DNA of 25,961 nt from IMG/VR virus record IMGVR_UViG_3300043420_000320, positions 1 through 25,961 of that record; one strand, written 5' to 3'. Both the position numbers and the translations under genes were made by a program. Every line of letters starts with the position of its first letter. The first letter of the stretch is position 1. Under the pieces are notes generated by a model, which saw only the letters and a program-made list of their open reading frames with translations, did no database searches and was not told the DNA's origin. Positions 9,180 to 14,911 of this stretch are shown here, one piece after another. Source of the DNA: a virus.

Positions 9180-9429
9180 CAATGTCATCTTTTGGAACGG
9201 ACTGCTGATACTTGGCAAGAATGTCTGGGTCTGGGTCCAGTACTGTAGCAAGAATGTCCGAATAAAGCAAGATGTTCCTCTGCCCTGCATAGCGAGGGAA
9301 CCTATGGAGAGTTCCGTCAATGATTTCCATTGGGTCTGAAAGGAACACAGAAGGTTCCATCTCCATTTCAGTTATGTAAGAGATTACATATTGCCCTGTC
9401 TTAAGCAGGATCAGTTTGATTGATTCCAT
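9160..9429 (-). CDS. Sm-like (LSm/Hfq-fold) protein, copy 1
   Basis: An 89-aa protein starting at ATG 9429 (the longer frame would need TTG 9444). It begins MESIKLILLKTGQYVISYI, matching the first strands of the other two copies (VKVILLKSGEDVIS and IKVVKLKSGEDIVA), then has a DP-containing turn and ends with ILLYSDILATVLDPDPDIL, which corresponds to the DWVV...P segment of its paralogues. The short beta-rich pattern fits an Sm fold. From memory, an Sm-like protein of putative cyanophage origin has been solved structurally from marine metagenomic DNA; I could not check that it is this family. It overlaps copy 2 by 29 bases and gp43 by 20, directly ahead of the polymerase gene. RNA binding is inference. 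Confidence 0.78.
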   Translation of the reverse strand: MESIKLILLKTGQYVISYITEMEMEPSVFLSDPMEIIDGTLHRFPRYAGQRNILLYSDILATVLDPDPDILAKYQQSVPKDDIDEELLQ

Positions 9430-9769
9430 CTTCTTCAATCTCAATGTTGTGCTTACTGCAATAATCCTTCATGATATTATCATGAGGATCATAAATTGTA
9501 ACTACCCAATCTGCGGGAATAACAAACTCTCTTTGCTTTGAAAGAGGTGCCCAATGAGTATATGCAACTTGAAATTTAATCTTAGGTGTTTTTGCAGTAT
9601 CGCCATCAGCGACAATCTCATCAACTTCTTCTTCGGTTGTCTGCAATTGCATTACATAAGGATTCTTTAGAAAGTATGCAACGATACCTTCATTTGATTT
9701 ATCGAGAATTTCTTGTGCGTCAGAAATTACATCTTCACCAGATTTCAATAAAATAACTTTAACGGTCAT
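9401..9769 (-). CDS. Sm-like (LSm/Hfq-fold) protein, copy 2
   Basis: A 122-aa protein with strand-turn-strand start VKVILLKSGEDVISDAQEI, a central YFLKNPYVMQ element, an acidic insertion around residues 45-60 and then YTHWAPLSKQREFVIPADWVVTIYDP. The last part aligns by eye with WQPLTHDEEIAVNPDWVVSIVEP of copy 3, so the two are clear paralogues. The tail is acidic. The ATG overlaps the nucleotidyltransferase stop by ATGA, and the end overlaps copy 1. Its family fold would suggest a ring-forming RNA-binding protein, possibly assembling with the other copies, but no function is known to me. Confidence 0.8.
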   Translation of the reverse strand: MTVKVILLKSGEDVISDAQEILDKSNEGIVAYFLKNPYVMQLQTTEEEVDEIVADGDTAKTPKIKFQVAYTHWAPLSKQREFVIPADWVVTIYDPHDNIMKDYCSKHNIEIEEDGINQTDPA

Positions 9770-10473
9770 AGTGATAACTTACGATCTTCGATGTCTCTAA
9801 TGTGTTTTGAAAGTTTATCAAGGTATCCACGATTGCGTAACTCTTTGAACACTAAGTTCTCAAGTGCAAACTCTCCACCTTGTTGAATAGCAGATGCTCG
9901 CATGTCTCTGATCCTGTCTTTCAGTTTTCGGAGAACTGCTGGATCATCTGCTTGATTTTCGATCAGGTCGTCAATCTTTTCCATCATATCATGAACCTTC
10001 TTAAAAAGCAAGGGGTCTGTCAGATCCACCTGCTGCTTCTGAGGTTCCTTAATCCACTTGCCATTGAGGAGTGAATACACTCCCTGACCTGCTGGAAGTG
10101 GATCATTGATGTCCTGTGCATAAAGTTCTACAGGATGGGCATAGATCTTAATGTCATGCATCAATGCCCACAGTTGTTTCTTATCCCTCAGGTAATCATC
10201 TAACAGTTCAGGACAGTTAGCAATCTGAGTTTTATCTACAACCAAATGCAAATCCAAATCAGAGAATCTTGTGTAATTAAAGTTGGCATTACCACCAACT
10301 AGAATAATATCTCTGATTGATTCCTGAGGAATCTTTGCAAACTCTGCCCACTTATATCCAATCTCAAGAAGTTTAGATGCAACTTCCTGTCTAAGTTCAA
10401 ACCCTTCCCAAAATTTAAGGTTGAGTTTGTCATGATACATCAGGGTTAACCTGAGTTCTTGAAACGATTTCAC
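9766..10473 (-). CDS. Nucleotidyltransferase (DNA polymerase beta superfamily type)
   Basis: The likely start is GTG 10473, giving 235 aa beginning with an SFQEL segment typical of phage proteins of this kind. The open frame reaches 10635, but that section overlaps the Sm-like gene and crosses its tandem stops region; ATG 10440 is the other candidate. The catalytic pattern is G60-G61-N...S71-D72-L-D74-LHLVVD, the GG/S..DxD signature of minimal nucleotidyltransferases, which transfer NMP to RNA, protein or small molecules. A charged helical C-terminal region (MMEKIDDLIEN, KDRIRDMRASA) follows. The substrate is unknown. It sits between two Sm-like paralogues, a context suggesting RNA as a substrate. 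A late promoter element lies 27 bases ahead of the GTG; no good ribosome site is visible. Confidence 0.82.
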   Translation of the reverse strand: MKSFQELRLTLMYHDKLNLKFWEGFELRQEVASKLLEIGYKWAEFAKIPQESIRDIILVGGNANFNYTRFSDLDLHLVVDKTQIANCPELLDDYLRDKKQLWALMHDIKIYAHPVELYAQDINDPLPAGQGVYSLLNGKWIKEPQKQQVDLTDPLLFKKVHDMMEKIDDLIENQADDPAVLRKLKDRIRDMRASAIQQGGEFALENLVFKELRNRGYLDKLSKHIRDIEDRKLSL

Positions 10474-10498
10474 AGACGCTAAATGAGATTTATTATTA

Positions 10499-10879
10499 TT
10501 ATTTATTATCCACGATTTTAATATTCGCTTCAGTAGCAACGTCTGCTCCGAATGTTGCCTTTGCTTCTTCGATTGGTTTGAGGGTTTGTCCATATGCCTC
10601 CATGACAGACATAATAGGTTCAACAATAGATACAACCCAATCAGGATTCACTGCAATTTCTTCATCGTGAGTGAGTGGTTGCCACGTTTCCAAAAGAATT
10701 CTACCAGTGTATTGCTGGTTTCTCCCTTCAGTTCCAGGAACAACTTCCTTTTCAATAAAAATTTTATATGGTCTATGAAAAACAAATGCCTGCCTGACAC
10801 CAGTTTCTTTATGTTGCACCTCAGATACATCCGCAACAATATCCTCACCAGATTTTAATTTAACAACTTTGATTCCCAT
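10499..10879 (-). CDS. Sm-like (LSm/Hfq-fold) protein, copy 3
   Basis: A 126-aa protein with the same plan as copies 1 and 2: IKVVKLKSGEDIVADVSEV, then FVFHRPYKIFIEKE, then WQPLTHDEEIAVNPDWVVSIVEP, with an acidic/alanine-rich tail. It is the first gene after the perfect sigma70 promoter at 10901-10929, so it should be among the first early products of this operon. The leader would be only about 15 bases with no Shine-Dalgarno. It ends in four consecutive TAA codons. Reading through the operon, the order is Sm3, nucleotidyltransferase, Sm2, Sm1, gp43. Function as RNA-binding regulator is inferred from fold resemblance only. Confidence 0.8.
   Translation of the reverse strand: MGIKVVKLKSGEDIVADVSEVQHKETGVRQAFVFHRPYKIFIEKEVVPGTEGRNQQYTGRILLETWQPLTHDEEIAVNPDWVVSIVEPIMSVMEAYGQTLKPIEEAKATFGADVATEANIKIVDNK
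10500..10507 (-). promoter_or_regulatory. Late promoter element at tandem stop codons
   Basis: The minus strand reads AATAAATA, a variant of the late element. The first of four consecutive TAA stops ending the Sm-like gene (10490-10501) lies partly within it. It is 27 bases before the proposed GTG start of the nucleotidyltransferase. The sequence is low-complexity, so chance is possible. Confidence 0.4.
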
Positions 10880-10900
10880 AATAGTATAATAAGAATTTAC

Positions 10901-10929
10901 ATTATAAGGGAGTCCTTGGTCTTTGTCAA
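10901..10929 (-). promoter_or_regulatory. Perfect-consensus sigma70 (early) promoter
   Basis: On the minus strand the -35 is TTGACA (10929-10924) and the -10 is TATAAT (10906-10901), both exact, separated by 17 bases, the optimal spacing. It points at the Sm-like/nucleotidyltransferase/gp43/uvsX/gp41 run and should be read by host RNA polymerase early in infection. The start of RNA would be about 10894, leaving a very short leader before ATG 10879. Confidence 0.88.
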
Positions 10930-10937
10930 GGACTCCC
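10908..10937. repeat. Perfect 11-bp inverted repeat overlapping the early promoter
   Basis: GGGAGTCCTTG and CAAGGACTCCC form a perfect stem with an eight-base loop. The palindrome covers the -35 element and most of the -10/-35 spacer. It lacks a T-tract on either strand, so it is a poor intrinsic terminator. It could be an operator for a dimeric regulator, or a stem-loop in late RNA started at 10962-10969. Confidence 0.8.
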
Positions 10938-10961
10938 AGCGCCGACGATATTTGGCGTAAC

Positions 10962-10969
10962 TATTTATA
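10962..10969 (-). promoter_or_regulatory. Late promoter containing the hsp20 stop codon
   Basis: An exact TATAAATA on the minus strand whose TAA is the hsp20 stop (10965-10967). Transcripts would run through the palindrome into the Sm-like genes, giving that operon a late as well as an early promoter. Confidence 0.6.
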
Positions 10970-11393
10970 GATAATCTTTACGAGCATGATGCTCTGGAAC
11001 TACTTTTCCGAGGACGATTCTAAGGAGTCCATCTTCAAAGGTAACTTCTCGTACCTCTGTGTCGTCGGATAAAGTCCACGCTCGTTTAAAACTTCTGCTA
11101 GCCACGCCCTTGTGGATAAACGTCCTGTCCGAATCTGTGTTTGATTTTTCACCCTCGACAAAAAGTTTTCCATACTCCGTGTACGCATGTACTTCCTCCT
11201 TTTTAAATCCTGCTAATGCAATTTCTAAATGAGATTCTACATTATTTACTTGAACAAGATTGTATGGGGGATAGTTTGTTTGTGTTTCAACATTAAATAG
11301 ACGATCAAAATATTCATCCATTCCAATACTATTGCGTGTGATCCTTTCCATCAAAGTAGGAAGATCTGCAGCACTGTACCTAGTGAGATTCAT
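10965..11393 (-). CDS. hsp20: Hsp20-family small heat shock protein
   Basis: The start at ATG 11393 is fixed by an AAAGGAG ribosome site; the longer frame to 11444 is not needed. The 142-aa protein has an N-terminal arm (MNLTRYSAADLPTLMERI), then an alpha-crystallin domain from about residue 40: YNLVQVNNVESHLEIALAGF, ...GKLFVEGEK, and a C-terminal strand FEDGLLRIVLGKVVPE. The family forms oligomers that hold unfolding proteins; in cyanophages it is a common auxiliary gene, thought to protect phage or host proteins. The tail ends HHARKDYL without the usual IxI motif. The gene is preceded by a terminator and a weak promoter and followed by late and early promoters, so it forms its own transcription unit. 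Confidence 0.94.
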   Translation of the reverse strand: MNLTRYSAADLPTLMERITRNSIGMDEYFDRLFNVETQTNYPPYNLVQVNNVESHLEIALAGFKKEEVHAYTEYGKLFVEGEKSNTDSDRTFIHKGVASRSFKRAWTLSDDTEVREVTFEDGLLRIVLGKVVPEHHARKDYL

Positions 11394-11453
11394 TATTGTA
11401 GCTCCTTTAAAAGCGAGTTTGTGTTTTGAGGACCCATATGGCATCCAATACTA

Positions 11454-11459
11454 ATTATA
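11454..11459 (-). promoter_or_regulatory. Possible sigma70 -10 element for hsp20
   Basis: TATAAT on the minus strand, 61 bases before the hsp20 ATG and just downstream of the terminator, in TTGTATAATTAG. No matching -35 is visible at 17 bases (GCTCCT), so it may be weak or need an activator. Confidence 0.4.
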
Positions 11460-11468
11460 CAAGAAACG

Positions 11469-11504
11469 AAAAAAAGAGGAGCGGTAAAAACCGAACCTCT
11501 TTTT
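11469..11504 (-). terminator. Strong intrinsic terminator (T-rich on both strands)
   Basis: AAAAAGAGG pairs with CCTCTTTTT, and an inner CGGT/ACCG stem caps the structure with an AAAA loop. The minus-strand exit has seven T, the plus-strand exit five. In the minus direction it ends the RNA started from the late promoter at 11550-11557, before hsp20. Confidence 0.82.
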
Positions 11505-11543
11505 AGGGTGTTCCGACTTTTGTAGAGACCGCACGAAAGGTCT
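11471..11543 (-). ncRNA. Candidate small non-coding RNA, two hairpins
   Basis: A minus-strand RNA started from the late element at 11550-11557 would begin near 11543 and end in the terminator at 11469-11504, giving about 73 bases. It would contain a first hairpin (GAGACC/GGTCTC with an eight-base loop TTTCGTGC, at 11525-11544), a single-stranded linker about 20 bases long, and the terminator hairpin. No open reading frame of note is visible. The layout resembles trans-acting small RNAs. The alternative is an attenuated 5' leader of hsp20. No homologue is known to me. Confidence 0.4.
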
Positions 11544-11549
11544 CGTTAC

Positions 11550-11557
11550 TATTTATA
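11550..11557 (-). promoter_or_regulatory. Late promoter divergent from the plus-strand operon
   Basis: An exact TATAAATA on the minus strand, 43 bases upstream of the plus-strand gene at 11600 and pointing away from it. Its transcript meets the terminator at 11469-11504 within about 75 bases. Confidence 0.6.
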
Positions 11558-11566
11558 CTTAAAATA

Positions 11567-11574
11567 CTAAATAA
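11567..11574 (+). promoter_or_regulatory. Possible late promoter for the plus-strand operon
   Basis: The plus strand reads CTAAATAA, differing from TATAAATA at the first, second and last positions, 26 bases before ATG 11600. It is the best late-like element ahead of this operon, but a weak match. Confidence 0.35.
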
Positions 11575-11599
11575 TACGGTCTTATTCCATACAAGAAAA

Positions 11600-12061
11600 A
11601 TGAAAAGATTACTTTTAATCTCTTCGTTATTCTTTGCTATTCCAGTTAATGCTGCTGAAATTACATCAAGAATTACTGATTCTGTTCAATTGAAAGTTGA
11701 TGGTGCTGCTGTTCAATCTACCCGAATTGGTGCTTCTTACTCCGTTTCTGGAACTAACATCCAATCCTCATCCTTTGGTGGTGTAGGTGGTGCTGGAACC
11801 TACGATATCAATACTGCTGGTCAAGCATTCTCATTCAGTGAGAGTTTCAACGCTGCTGATACGCCTGTAACTTCACAGACAGTTACTAATGGCGTTATCG
11901 GAACTCCAAATCTTTATGGAGATAGCGTAACTCAAACTGGTGGTGATAAGGGAACTCTTGCTGGTACTCTATCAACAACTGGTGTTCCTACCGTTACTGC
12001 TGGTGGTGCTGGCACTACTGCTACAGGACAAAGAACCATCGAATTGAGTGTGTTCAAGTGA
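11600..12061 (+). CDS. Exported protein of unknown function, Gly/Thr/Ser-rich (153 aa)
   Basis: The N-terminus is a Sec signal peptide: MKR, a hydrophobic core LLLISSLFFAIPV, and a NAA cleavage region after about residue 19. The mature part is Gly/Thr/Ser/Val-rich and looks like beta sheet, with no Cys. A segment ASYSVSGTNIQSS ... YDINTAGQAFSFSESF resembles a segment of the next protein, so the two are probably duplicates. It is the first gene of the only plus-strand operon, and its last bases overlap the next gene (GTGA). An exported phage protein could act in the periplasm or outer envelope, or be a virion component processed by the host. I do not recognise the function. Confidence 0.82.
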   Translation: MKRLLLISSLFFAIPVNAAEITSRITDSVQLKVDGAAVQSTRIGASYSVSGTNIQSSSFGGVGGAGTYDINTAGQAFSFSESFNAADTPVTSQTVTNGVIGTPNLYGDSVTQTGGDKGTLAGTLSTTGVPTVTAGGAGTTATGQRTIELSVFK

Positions 12062-12417
12062 AATATCTCCTAGCAGGTTTGATCCTGCTAGGGACTTCTT
12101 CACCTGCCCTAGCAGAAAGTGTTGTGCCTAATTTTACTAGAGGCACAATCAACGCTACAACAGAATCAACTACAAAAATTATAGAAACTATTCGCCAAGT
12201 TGAATATACAACTGGAGAATCTTATACTGTAACTGGAACTAATATTAACATTCCTGGAAATCCTCAACGTGGTGCCAACTATAGCATCATGACTCAAGGT
12301 GCTCCATTCCAGTTCAGTGAAACATACCTTGGACCTGGCGTGGCAAAAGAAACATGGATAGATCGATCAACAGAAACTCAATCAACCACTACATCAATCT
12401 CTGTCTTTACGCAGTGA
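12058..12417 (+). CDS. Exported protein of unknown function, paralogue of the preceding one (119 aa)
   Basis: The start is GTG 12058, overlapping the previous stop as GTGA, which implies coupled translation. A clear signal peptide is present: MKYLLAGLILLGTSSPALA then ES, with an ALA cleavage site at residue 19. The mature protein is Thr/Ser/Asn-rich. GESYTVTGTNINIPG and YSIMTQGAPFQFSETY match the preceding protein by eye. No Cys or catalytic motif is seen. The GTG start and identical overlap style suggest fixed stoichiometry with its neighbour. Likely secreted across the inner membrane; role unknown. Confidence 0.82.
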   Translation: MKYLLAGLILLGTSSPALAESVVPNFTRGTINATTESTTKIIETIRQVEYTTGESYTVTGTNINIPGNPQRGANYSIMTQGAPFQFSETYLGPGVAKETWIDRSTETQSTTTSISVFTQ

Positions 12418-12938
12418 TTAGTTGTGGGACATTACCAGTTTACTCGCAAAGTACTCCCGCTCCTTCTAATACTAACATTGCTGGTCCTAGCGCCTCTGCC
12501 ACTGGCAACGTTACTAATCAAGCAGTACAAGTATTACAAGGTCCATACGCACTTAATACCTACGGAGGAGGGGTTAGTTGTCAGGGGGCGACGTTTAGCG
12601 TATCCCCCTTCGCATTAGGAAGTAACAACAGTAGTGAAGATCCAGAAACATTTACGTCCCGTAATGGAAACTATGGTATCTCTGCAGGTATCAATATTCC
12701 ACTAGATACTACATTAATGGAATTGTGCAAAAGAAGAGCAGAGACAGAAATCGAAAGACAGAAGGCAGAAGCAGACAAGGCAAGATTGGATTTCGAATTG
12801 GTTAGATTATTAAAGTGTGGTGAAGCAATCAAATCTGGTATCTCATTCCACCCAGATAGTCCTTACTACAAAATCTGTGCTGACGTAGTTGTCAAATATC
12901 CAAACGTAAAGGATGTTGTAAATGGATCCAATCGATAA
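12354..12938 (+). CDS. Exported protein with coiled C-terminal region
   Basis: Two starts are possible. ATG 12354 gives 194 aa and keeps a hydrophobic stretch INLCLYAVISCGTLPVYSQ that looks like a signal peptide, even with a lipobox-like VISC. GTG 12414 overlaps the previous stop as GTGA, like the junction before it, but leaves no full signal. The mature region holds NQAVQVLQGPYALNTYGGG and a Cys-containing SCQGATFSVSPF, then a helical, strongly charged stretch LCKRRAETEIERQKAEADKA (around 125-145), and ends with two more Cys. Four Cys suggest disulfides in the periplasm. The end overlaps the next gene by 17 bases. Function unknown; gene confident, start not. Confidence 0.75.
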   Translation: MDRSINRNSINHYINLCLYAVISCGTLPVYSQSTPAPSNTNIAGPSASATGNVTNQAVQVLQGPYALNTYGGGVSCQGATFSVSPFALGSNNSSEDPETFTSRNGNYGISAGINIPLDTTLMELCKRRAETEIERQKAEADKARLDFELVRLLKCGEAIKSGISFHPDSPYYKICADVVVKYPNVKDVVNGSNR

Positions 12939-13785
12939 TCCTAATCTGATACCCATCATCGGAAATAATCCGATTAAGGTCCAAAATACAAACATCAATC
13001 GAATCGCTGGTCCCTCTATCATTCCCACCATAGAGAGACCAATAATTCGTAGTATGGAACAACCCGTGGTTCGTGGTCTTGAAGTTCCTGTTGTTGATGT
13101 GCCAAACACAAGGATACCTTATCCTGTAATCAACGTACCAACACAGGAAGAGTTTGATGCTGCTGTAAGAGCAGAGAAAGAAAAGCAGGCACAAGAAGAT
13201 GCTACAAAGAATAGAGGGTTGCCAGATCCTACCCCTCCCCCTCAACTGCCAGCAGCAATCCAAACCCCCCAACCTATAACTCCCGTTGTAGAGGTTCCAG
13301 CGCAACCTACAACTCCCACACTTACGGTAGCTGGTTTGAATATCAATCTACCAGACCCCTCCCTGGTCGCCACAGCAGGTGCTGTGGCAGTTGTGACCAC
13401 TGCTTCTACAATGGTGGCAACGACTGCACTCAACGCTCTTAAGAACGCTGCTGAACCACTCATCAAAGAAGCAACGAAAAAGAAGTTCAAAATCAAGATC
13501 AAACAAGTCAAACCAGTACTACATTATGTGCTGGCAGACGAGGGACATATTGATGTGTTTGAATACTCTGCTACTGGCACACGACTTGTAGAGAAGGTCG
13601 ATAATGTAGAGCAGTATATTCGAGATCAAGTTGAGATAAATTCTCTCTATGAACTTGACAACAAAATTATTATTGATGATGTGATCGCAGACAAGTTCAC
13701 AAAAGAGGGGCAAAAGAGATTTAAACCTCTGTTTGCCCCCGCTAAAAAGATTGCTAAGAAATTGTCTGCTAAGTTTTCAATCTGA
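12922..13785 (+). CDS. Pro-rich protein with a single membrane segment (287 aa)
   Basis: Starts at ATG 12922 with AAGGA nine bases upstream. Residues 1-75 repeat Pro/Ile/Val motifs (PIIGNNP, PSIIPTIERPIIR, VPVVDVP). Residues 75-95 are helical and charged, followed by a Pro-rich linker of about 40 residues. A hydrophobic, Ala/Val/Thr-rich stretch (around 150-175, VATAGAVAVVTTASTMVATT) could span a membrane, followed by Lys-rich KKKFKIKIKQVKP and a charged C-terminal domain. The layout recalls a TonB- or tether-like protein reaching across an envelope, but no homology is recognised. It is the last gene of the plus-strand operon and overlaps the minus-strand 43-aa gene tail-to-tail by nine bases. 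Confidence 0.8.
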   Translation: MDPIDNPNLIPIIGNNPIKVQNTNINRIAGPSIIPTIERPIIRSMEQPVVRGLEVPVVDVPNTRIPYPVINVPTQEEFDAAVRAEKEKQAQEDATKNRGLPDPTPPPQLPAAIQTPQPITPVVEVPAQPTTPTLTVAGLNINLPDPSLVATAGAVAVVTTASTMVATTALNALKNAAEPLIKEATKKKFKIKIKQVKPVLHYVLADEGHIDVFEYSATGTRLVEKVDNVEQYIRDQVEINSLYELDNKIIIDDVIADKFTKEGQKRFKPLFAPAKKIAKKLSAKFSI

Positions 13786-13908: not shown

Positions 13909-14089
13909 CTACTTTCTCCAAGATAATAGTATATAGACCGCTTTGATTGGCATGTAACATTGCTTCATCTTCTGTAGCAAACACGGCTGCTTTAGATCTA
14001 CTTGTCGTCCACTTTGGACTGTCATTCACATTGTCCTGAAAATAGATAGTCCAGGTTCCTGCGAATCCTTCTCGCTTTACTCGGTACAT
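13877..14089 (-). CDS. Small hypothetical protein (70 aa)
   Basis: A soluble, basic-to-neutral protein: MYRVKREGFAGTWTIYFQDN, then a KWTTSRSKAAVFATEDEAML segment that looks like a strand-helix unit, and an acidic/basic tail. Trp and aromatic residues suggest a small folded domain. Its ATG shares one base with the stop of the preceding 62-aa gene, and its end overlaps the 43-aa gene. No function recognised. Confidence 0.7.
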   Translation of the reverse strand: MYRVKREGFAGTWTIYFQDNVNDSPKWTTSRSKAAVFATEDEAMLHANQSGLYTIILEKVDDDNSSKRKA

Positions 14090-14277
14090 CAGAACAATTT
14101 GAATGGTAGTTTCTCTGTGATTTCTTTTACACCTTTGGGTGTAACTGCTTCGATGATCTCACGCTTTGCTTGCTCGATTAGAGTTTCTCTATTCATGTAA
14201 GCATACACGCCAGCACCTACAGCAGATGCACTCATGACAAACGAGGCAACTGCTAGAACGTTAATTAGTTTTTGCAT
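14089..14277 (-). CDS. Small membrane protein (62 aa)
   Basis: AAGGAG lies seven bases ahead of ATG 14277. Residues 5-27 (INVLAVASFVMSASAVGAGVYAY) form one clear membrane helix or uncleaved signal anchor. The remainder is a charged, amphipathic C-terminal part (EQAKREIIEAVTPKGVKEI). The start overlaps the end of the 49-aa gene by 17 bases. Size and topology would fit a spanin-, pinholin- or regulator-like membrane peptide, but nothing specific is recognised. Confidence 0.72.
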   Translation of the reverse strand: MQKLINVLAVASFVMSASAVGAGVYAYMNRETLIEQAKREIIEAVTPKGVKEITEKLPFKLF

Positions 14278-14412: not shown

Positions 14413-14886
14413 TCAAAGATCTCCTCTACGAGGTCTCTCCTCAGTAGGTGCTTCTTCAGCAACTGGTGCTACTTCTGCAGGGATTTCTTCAGCAGGTGCT
14501 TCAGCGGCAACTGGTTCTTCCCATACCAGTGGTGGTTCTGGGGTTGGTTCTGGTTCAGACCATAATGGTTGAACTTCTGGTTCAGTTTTATCTTCTTCTT
14601 TTTTAGCAGCATATACAGGTGCTTCAGGAAGAGATCCACCGTTACCATTAGCGCCTGGTGTTTGTCCTGCCTTAGCAGCAGCAATACCAAATCCAGCTAA
14701 GGATCCAGAGAAAACAGAAGCGATGAAAGTTGGGTCAAAATCCATGATTTTTTGACCACTTGGTAACCTCACATAGGAGGCAGTTAAAAGTCCAGCAGAC
14801 CAGATTAAAATAACAATCCTAACAAGGTCACTTAACCATTCTCTTTTCTCTTCTCTGTCTGCTCCTTCGGAAACCTTAGGAAGCAT
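14413..14886 (-). CDS. Membrane protein with two helices and Pro/Glu-rich tail (holin-like topology)
   Basis: The start is taken as ATG 14886 (157 aa); GTG 14907 would add seven residues. After a charged N-terminus (PKVSEGADREEKREW), residues 20-40 (LVRIVILIWSAGLLTASYV) and about 53-73 (FIASVFSGSLAGFGIAAAKAG) are hydrophobic, giving two membrane helices. From residue 75 on the protein is a disordered, acidic Pro/Glu/Ala tail (PEPTPEPPLVWEEP) ending RPRRGDL. It is the first gene after the late promoter at 14912-14919. The topology could serve a holin or an envelope anchor; neither is shown. Confidence 0.75.
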   Translation of the reverse strand: MLPKVSEGADREEKREWLSDLVRIVILIWSAGLLTASYVRLPSGQKIMDFDPTFIASVFSGSLAGFGIAAAKAGQTPGANGNGGSLPEAPVYAAKKEEDKTEPEVQPLWSEPEPTPEPPLVWEEPVAAEAPAEEIPAEVAPVAEEAPTEERPRRGDL

Positions 14887-14911
14887 TTTTCTAATAAAAA
14901 TAAACACAAGT

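Follow-up and report, generated by a model that had tools for sequence, protein, structure and literature searches.

In a T4-like cyanophage genome fragment, a block of overlapping genes, g1 to g4, encodes what is, judged from sequence, a well-supported set of exported, envelope-acting proteins conserved as a unit. To the reading that these genes, with an accompanying DUF6450 protein, are a non-canonical lysis cassette of cyanophages, composed of a holin and an outer-membrane-disruption device, we assign a probability of about one half. More tentatively, a lipid-anchor-free complex of g1, g2 and g3, coupled to the Pro-rich, C-terminally anchored g4, may disrupt the outer membrane of the hosts, as a third solution to the final stage of Gram-negative lysis, beside two-component and unimolecular spanins, that would have been exchanged horizontally between the myo-, podo- and siphoviruses that infect marine picocyanobacteria. 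Few viruses on Earth are more abundant than those that infect Prochlorococcus and Synechococcus, and the lysis they cause nourishes the marine food web. For the machinery with which cyanophages break the outer membrane, long missing, the cassette is a promising candidate, and as a conserved exported set linked to a putative holin it makes the opening of this membrane directly testable.

The gene block and its products

The window, i.e., the whole stretch of DNA analysed here (IMG/VR record IMGVR_UViG_3300043420_000320; 25,961 bases), is identified as a fragment of a T4-like cyanophage by its gene order. Genes for gp41, UvsX, gp43, hsp20, DUF6450, regA, gp44, gp45 and a CobS-like protein all lie on the minus strand, and Syn9 contains a stretch of identical order matching this replication-gene region. 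The block g1-g4 (11600-13785), on the plus strand, separates hsp20 from the DUF6450/regA group and lies at the position where Syn9 has gp167-gp166-gp165, there too on the strand opposite to the neighbours. The following features are relevant to the argument:

11550-11557, minus strand: TATAAATA, a T4-late-type element facing hsp20, found by direct reading
11568-11573, plus strand: TAAATA, a late-promoter-like element 32 nt upstream of g1
11600-12061, plus strand: g1, 153 aa, OMP1 family (phrog_564, E 2.3e-33), signal peptide, beta-rich
12058-12417, plus strand: g2, 119 aa, GTG start, DUF6322 (phrog_650, E 8e-30), signal peptide, C-terminus SVFTQ
12354-12938, plus strand: g3, 194 aa, phrog_848 (E 1.5e-54)/1755, relative of Syn9 gp165, signal peptide, four invariant Cys
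12354-12417, plus strand: g2/g3 overlap of 64 nt, with the g3 start and the first part of the g3 signal peptide inside g2
12922-13785, plus strand: g4, 287 aa, phrog_9426 (E 2.3e-5), Pro-rich arm, C-terminal membrane segment
14089-14277, minus strand: small membrane protein, phrog_568, Syn9 gp162
14413-14907, minus strand: DUF6450 protein, phrog_721, two membrane segments, holin-like

The preliminary description of this DNA had reported four overlapping plus-strand genes running against their surroundings, and this is borne out by the strands of the open reading frames and by PHROG and Pfam relatives. All other gene-sized frames of the annotated type are on the minus strand, and the leftover plus-strand frames are short and antisense to them. 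Since each of g1-g4 has database relatives and the order g1-g2-g3 is conserved, they are real genes and not chance frames. The GTGA junctions described earlier hold at g1/g2 only, as the overlap is 64 nt for g2/g3 and 17 nt for g3/g4. The families concerned (PHROGs 564, 650, 848/1755, 9426/570 and 721, Pfam DUF6322 and DUF6450) are direct matches to widespread conserved hypotheticals, so that the earlier remark that no such system was known needs revising; the name OMP1 for the g1 family has already been given in the psbAD region of S-RSM2. A prior description of the cassette, or of a link between its families, has not been found in the open-licence literature and may exist elsewhere.

The T4 late promoter has the sequence TATAAATA. 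Of 127 myovirus loci, 121 have TAAATA upstream of g1, where shuffles give 21 on average; its position is mostly -34 to -29 from the ATG. The motif TATTTATA is found upstream of g1 in 18 of the 127 (2.7 in shuffles). Because of the resemblance of TAAATA to the T4 late promoter, the g1-g4 operon probably has its own late promoter, which would account for its running against the surrounding replication genes.

Export of the first three products is predicted from their N-termini, which in most homologues of each lineage show a positive n-region, a hydrophobic core and an AxA-type site; the pattern, scored heuristically and not by SignalP, is weaker in g2 of Syn9-like and g3 of MED4-117-like phages. 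The signal peptides originally noticed on g1 and g2 and the export-like start of g3 are thus cleavable-type features that recur across lineages. Besides this signal no membrane anchor has been found in g1-g3, and a regular-expression scan for a lipobox has returned none in g1 and g2 homologues and 5/400 in those of g3. A lipoprotein reading of the window's own g3 (VISC before G) has been rejected, as the motif is unconserved and relatives show AxA-type sites.

Tandem paralogy of g1 and g2, proposed at the outset, agrees with profile comparison (hhalign probability 97.5-97.8, E about 1e-11 to 1e-12). With 50.4 bits g2 is a member of Pfam DUF6322 (PF19847; cut-off 30.6), and g1 scores 15.5 bits, under that cut-off. 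AlphaFold has modelled g1 as beta-rich with low confidence (mean pLDDT 70). In g3, the four Cys pointed out before are invariant in 43 diverse homologues, and its model contains a confident long helix at 119-160 (pLDDT about 80-88), the rest being poor (mean pLDDT 59). Comparison of these weak g1 and g3 models with known folds (Foldseek, VIA-align) has given chance-level rows only, the best for g1 being pore-toxin stems (E 1.8, Z 2.4). For a TolC-like nature of g3 the scores stay below the Pfam threshold, and this reading is not adopted: the Pfam model Outer membrane efflux protein is matched at E 0.11 and 12.7 bits (cut-off 22) and touched by 8 of the 43 homologues (best E 0.021), and the weak structure model has no fold match.

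The fourth gene has both the Pro-rich region and the membrane segment ascribed to it from the start. In g4-type proteins, 12-20% proline is found over the 75-176 residues preceding a single membrane segment, and the net charge changes from -2 to -4 before the segment to +4 to +7 behind it; under the positive-inside rule, this change points to an N-out/C-in topology. At the N-terminus of g4 no signal peptide or lipobox has been detected, so the arm of 75-176 residues would need to cross as an N-tail. Relatedness of the window's g4 to P-SSP7_042, both of phrog_9426, is seen over the membrane segment (hhalign probability 95.8, E 6.7e-9), and Syn9 gp164/phrog_570 is a more distant relative. The DUF6450 proteins are mostly about 70-165 aa long, with a charged tail and two hydrophobic segments, of which the second is often under the scan threshold; they match no holin family, their Pfam and PHROG matches being to families without assigned function. 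PDB sequence searches with g1-g4 and the DUF6450 protein have given nothing significant.

Distribution and architecture among cyanophages

The operon had been introduced as a lone one, a view that must be dropped, as the g1-g3 block is among the commonest cyanophage gene blocks. By tblastn, g1 has been found in 256, g2 in 351 and g3 in 461 phage records, and DUF6450 in 433 records of the same kind. All g1-g3 records are named as cyanophages or marine/uncultured single-cell viruses, and in the databases searched g1-g2-g3 has not been found outside cyanophage-type records. A host origin has been rejected: the 18 matches in genome assemblies carry further cassette genes, many together with TerL, gp43 or psbA, and are therefore more likely phage contigs within bins or single-cell assemblies than host homologues. 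Carriers include the myoviruses Syn9 and P-HM2, the T7-like podoviruses P-SSP7, KBS-P-1A, NATL2A-133 and P-SCSP1a, and MED4-117, classed here as a siphovirus by its lambda-like tail genes.

The architecture has been compared in 400 IMG/VR contigs, which were retrieved with five different g3 queries and scored by profiles of all cassette genes; as contigs inside one lineage are related, their counts are not independent, and the five lineages are the independent units. The window-like contigs have g1 g2 g3 g4 with a convergent DUF6450 gene (50/80), and Syn9-like ones g1 g2 g3 with a convergent g4 (77/80) and a convergent DUF6450 gene. In the podo- and siphoviruses, DUF6450 immediately precedes g2-g3 or g1-g3 on their strand: P-SSP7-like contigs show g4 DUF6450 g2 g3 on one strand (74/80), P-SCSP1a-like ones DUF6450 g2 g3 followed by a convergent g4 (65/80), and MED4-117-like ones DUF6450 g1 g2 g3 (66/80) with a convergent g4-type gene of phrog_570 (80/80). 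The order g1-g2-g3 is thus kept across contigs, in the company of a g4-type protein and DUF6450, and the block is conserved as a unit; its lack of conservation, which the preliminary description had named as evidence against its reading, is not what was found. In myoviruses the cassette is constantly accompanied by the small membrane protein at 14089-14277 on the minus strand (Syn9 gp162, PHM2_192), for which the database name of phrog_568, 'plasmid stability', is unsupported here.

A further shared trait is the g3 start, the only possible one (ATG, GTG or TTG before the signal peptide) being located inside g2 in all 385 contigs with both genes. The overlap is exactly 64 nt in 78/78 relatives of the window lineage and has other lengths in the four other lineages (67/112, mostly 166, 139 and 53-56 nt). 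The annotations of P-SSP7, KBS-P-1A and NATL2A-133 put the g3 start after the g2 stop (at 38783 in P-SSP7_045, 7118 and 9169, respectively), and consequently the signal peptide is lost from the annotated protein. The cassette has thus been partly concealed by misplaced gene starts, the kind of error that has been blamed for missed spanins (Kongari et al., 2018; PMC6139136).

In T7-like cyanophages the cassette sits between the tail fibre and terminase small subunit genes; the order in P-SSP7 is tail fibre, g4, DUF6450, g2, g3, a small gene, the terminase small subunit and, further on, the large subunit. The order in T7 itself is tail fibre 17, holin 17.5, 18, spanins 18.5/18.7 and 19. In P60, which lacks the cassette, the same slot holds an endolysin (PHROG 181, E 2.8e-31), a family matched in P60 only. 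Comparison of these few phages points to the tail fibre-terminase position as a lysis slot. The slot of P60 (9353-10325) and of Syn5 (36392-36652), both cassette-less, also contains a small coiled-coil protein with an N-terminal membrane segment (phrog_12220), which none of the four cassette-bearing podoviruses tested has; beside the endolysin of P60 it is possibly part of an alternative lysis set.

Proposed role and competing explanations

In a published survey, no spanins were found in a list of marine cyanophages, and it was proposed that the marine cyanobacterial outer membrane may be fragile, or that unusual spanins may exist, either as an outer membrane protein or as a membrane protein of N-out/C-in topology whose segment is C-terminal (Kongari et al., 2018; PMC6139136). 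Cassette genes are present in 17 of 22 listed phages tested, a selection that leaves out the listed S-CBS4 and A-4L: P-SSP7, P-HM1, P-HM2, P-RSM4, P-SSM2, P-SSM4, P-SSM7, Syn1, Syn33, S-RSM4, S-ShM2, S-SM1, S-SM2, S-SSM7, Syn19, Syn9 and S-SSM5, the last with only DUF6450 seen. None has been found in the other five (S-PM2, P60, Syn5, PSS2 and Pf-WMP4), so the cassette cannot be the sole solution.

Several likenesses connect the cassette with two-component spanins (lambda Rz/Rz1, T7 18.5/18.7). The g3 start inside g2 recalls the overlapped spanin genes, in which the second likewise begins within the first; the cassette is predicted to be envelope-directed, is near a holin-like gene, has Pro-rich and helical parts and, in T7-like cyanophages, occupies the T7 lysis position. 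However, two-component spanins comprise a lipoprotein o-spanin with a lipobox, which the cassette practically lacks, and a type II i-spanin with an N-terminal membrane segment and periplasmic coiled coil, whereas the cassette has no N-terminally anchored member. Instead, three proteins would be exported by cleavable signals, and the anchored g4 has its segment near the C-terminus with the positive side after it. Unimolecular spanins (T1 gp11) share with g4 an extended arm, presumably in the periplasm, ahead of a C-terminal membrane segment, but they start with a lipobox, whereas g4 has neither lipobox nor signal and is accompanied by g1-g3. Since g1-g3 are devoid of lipobox and membrane anchor, canonical spanins are ruled out, and by these sequence features the cassette is in neither known spanin class, although it may work like a spanin. 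The DUF6450 protein resembles small two-segment holins in size, its two membrane segments and its charged tail, albeit with no holin-family match.

In the mechanism that we propose, the DUF6450 protein would gather in the inner membrane as the holin, while g1, g2 and g3 would be exported by Sec, cleaved and assembled into a putative complex in the periplasm or on the outer membrane, to which g3 would add a disulfide-braced long helix. With its C-terminal segment in the inner membrane and its Pro-rich arm outside, g4 is expected to dock onto this assembly. When the inner membrane and the wall have been opened by the holin together with an endolysin whose gene lies elsewhere, the g1-g4 complex could disrupt the outer membrane, doing the job of a spanin without being one. 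An endolysin has been found neither in the window nor near the cassette in most lineages. In freshwater DSL-LC03 (10279-13471), lysozyme-family and C39-peptidase 'endolysin' genes are located within 5 kb of the cassette, beside an autotransporter-like barrel gene and psbA/psbD, and these genes speak for a lysis role.

The envelope-modifying complex initially suggested has stood as far as an exported set conserved as a unit is concerned, and of the roles then offered, the lysis aid is favoured by the late-type promoter, the holin-like neighbour and the T7 lysis-slot position, while superinfection exclusion and receptor masking have become less likely because of that promoter. In a surface-remodelling or exclusion role, g1-g3, partnered in the inner membrane by g4 and DUF6450, would coat or plug the infected cell's outer membrane and thereby block rival phages or change uptake. 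Three exported proteins in one operon, a cyanophage-only spread over phage types that share hosts, and the proximity of psbA/psbD in DSL-LC03 and S-RSM2 are in line with this role; yet known exclusion genes act early, and neither a two-segment holin-like partner nor the T7 lysis slot is expected from it, so that we regard it as unlikely. The late-type promoter would also suit virion or ejected proteins, i.e., late structural components for decoration, adhesion or crossing of the periplasm, their hydrophobic N-terminal stretches then being something other than signal peptides, and tail genes adjoin the cassette in podo- and siphoviruses. Nevertheless, g1, g2 and g3 show, across the lineages, Sec signals of the cleavable type with AxA sites, which would take them out of the cytoplasm, where virions assemble, and one gene set in three unrelated virion types is unlikely to serve a single virion architecture. 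Moreover, no PDB chain matches, virion entries included, and the cryo-EM model of P-SCSP1u names only gp16, 19, 22, 23 and 28, which together leave a virion role a rather poor prospect; S-CREM2, S-CREM1 and S-SZBM1, with readable or partial virion data, are without g3 and g2 and hence uninformative on virion content.

The constant linkage to the DUF6450 protein is also consistent with a regulator of lysis, in which a periplasmic or outer-membrane timer delays the holin (antiholin-like, lysis inhibition) in place of a disrupting device. Exported proteins could sense the envelope, and cyanophages reportedly lack the T4 r genes (PMC2984593). Against this, known antiholins need fewer than three or four dedicated proteins and no sequence feature suggests sensing, and we find such a regulator improbable.

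Further genes in the window

Two similar small proteins are encoded on the minus strand at 9401-9769 and 10499-10879 (K.LKSGEDVI.DA / KVVKLKSGEDIVADV), the second matching DUF6561, and are probable tandem paralogues with a third gene between them. This gene (9766-10635, minus strand) encodes a phrog_36119 protein (E 2.1e-83) in which GGNANFNYTRFSDLDLHLVV resembles a nucleotidyltransferase motif. A sigma-70 promoter of perfect consensus (TTGACA-17-TATAAT, 12/12) has been found at 10901-10929 on the minus strand, a short way upstream of the gene at 10499-10879, and is likely an early promoter for the replication genes.
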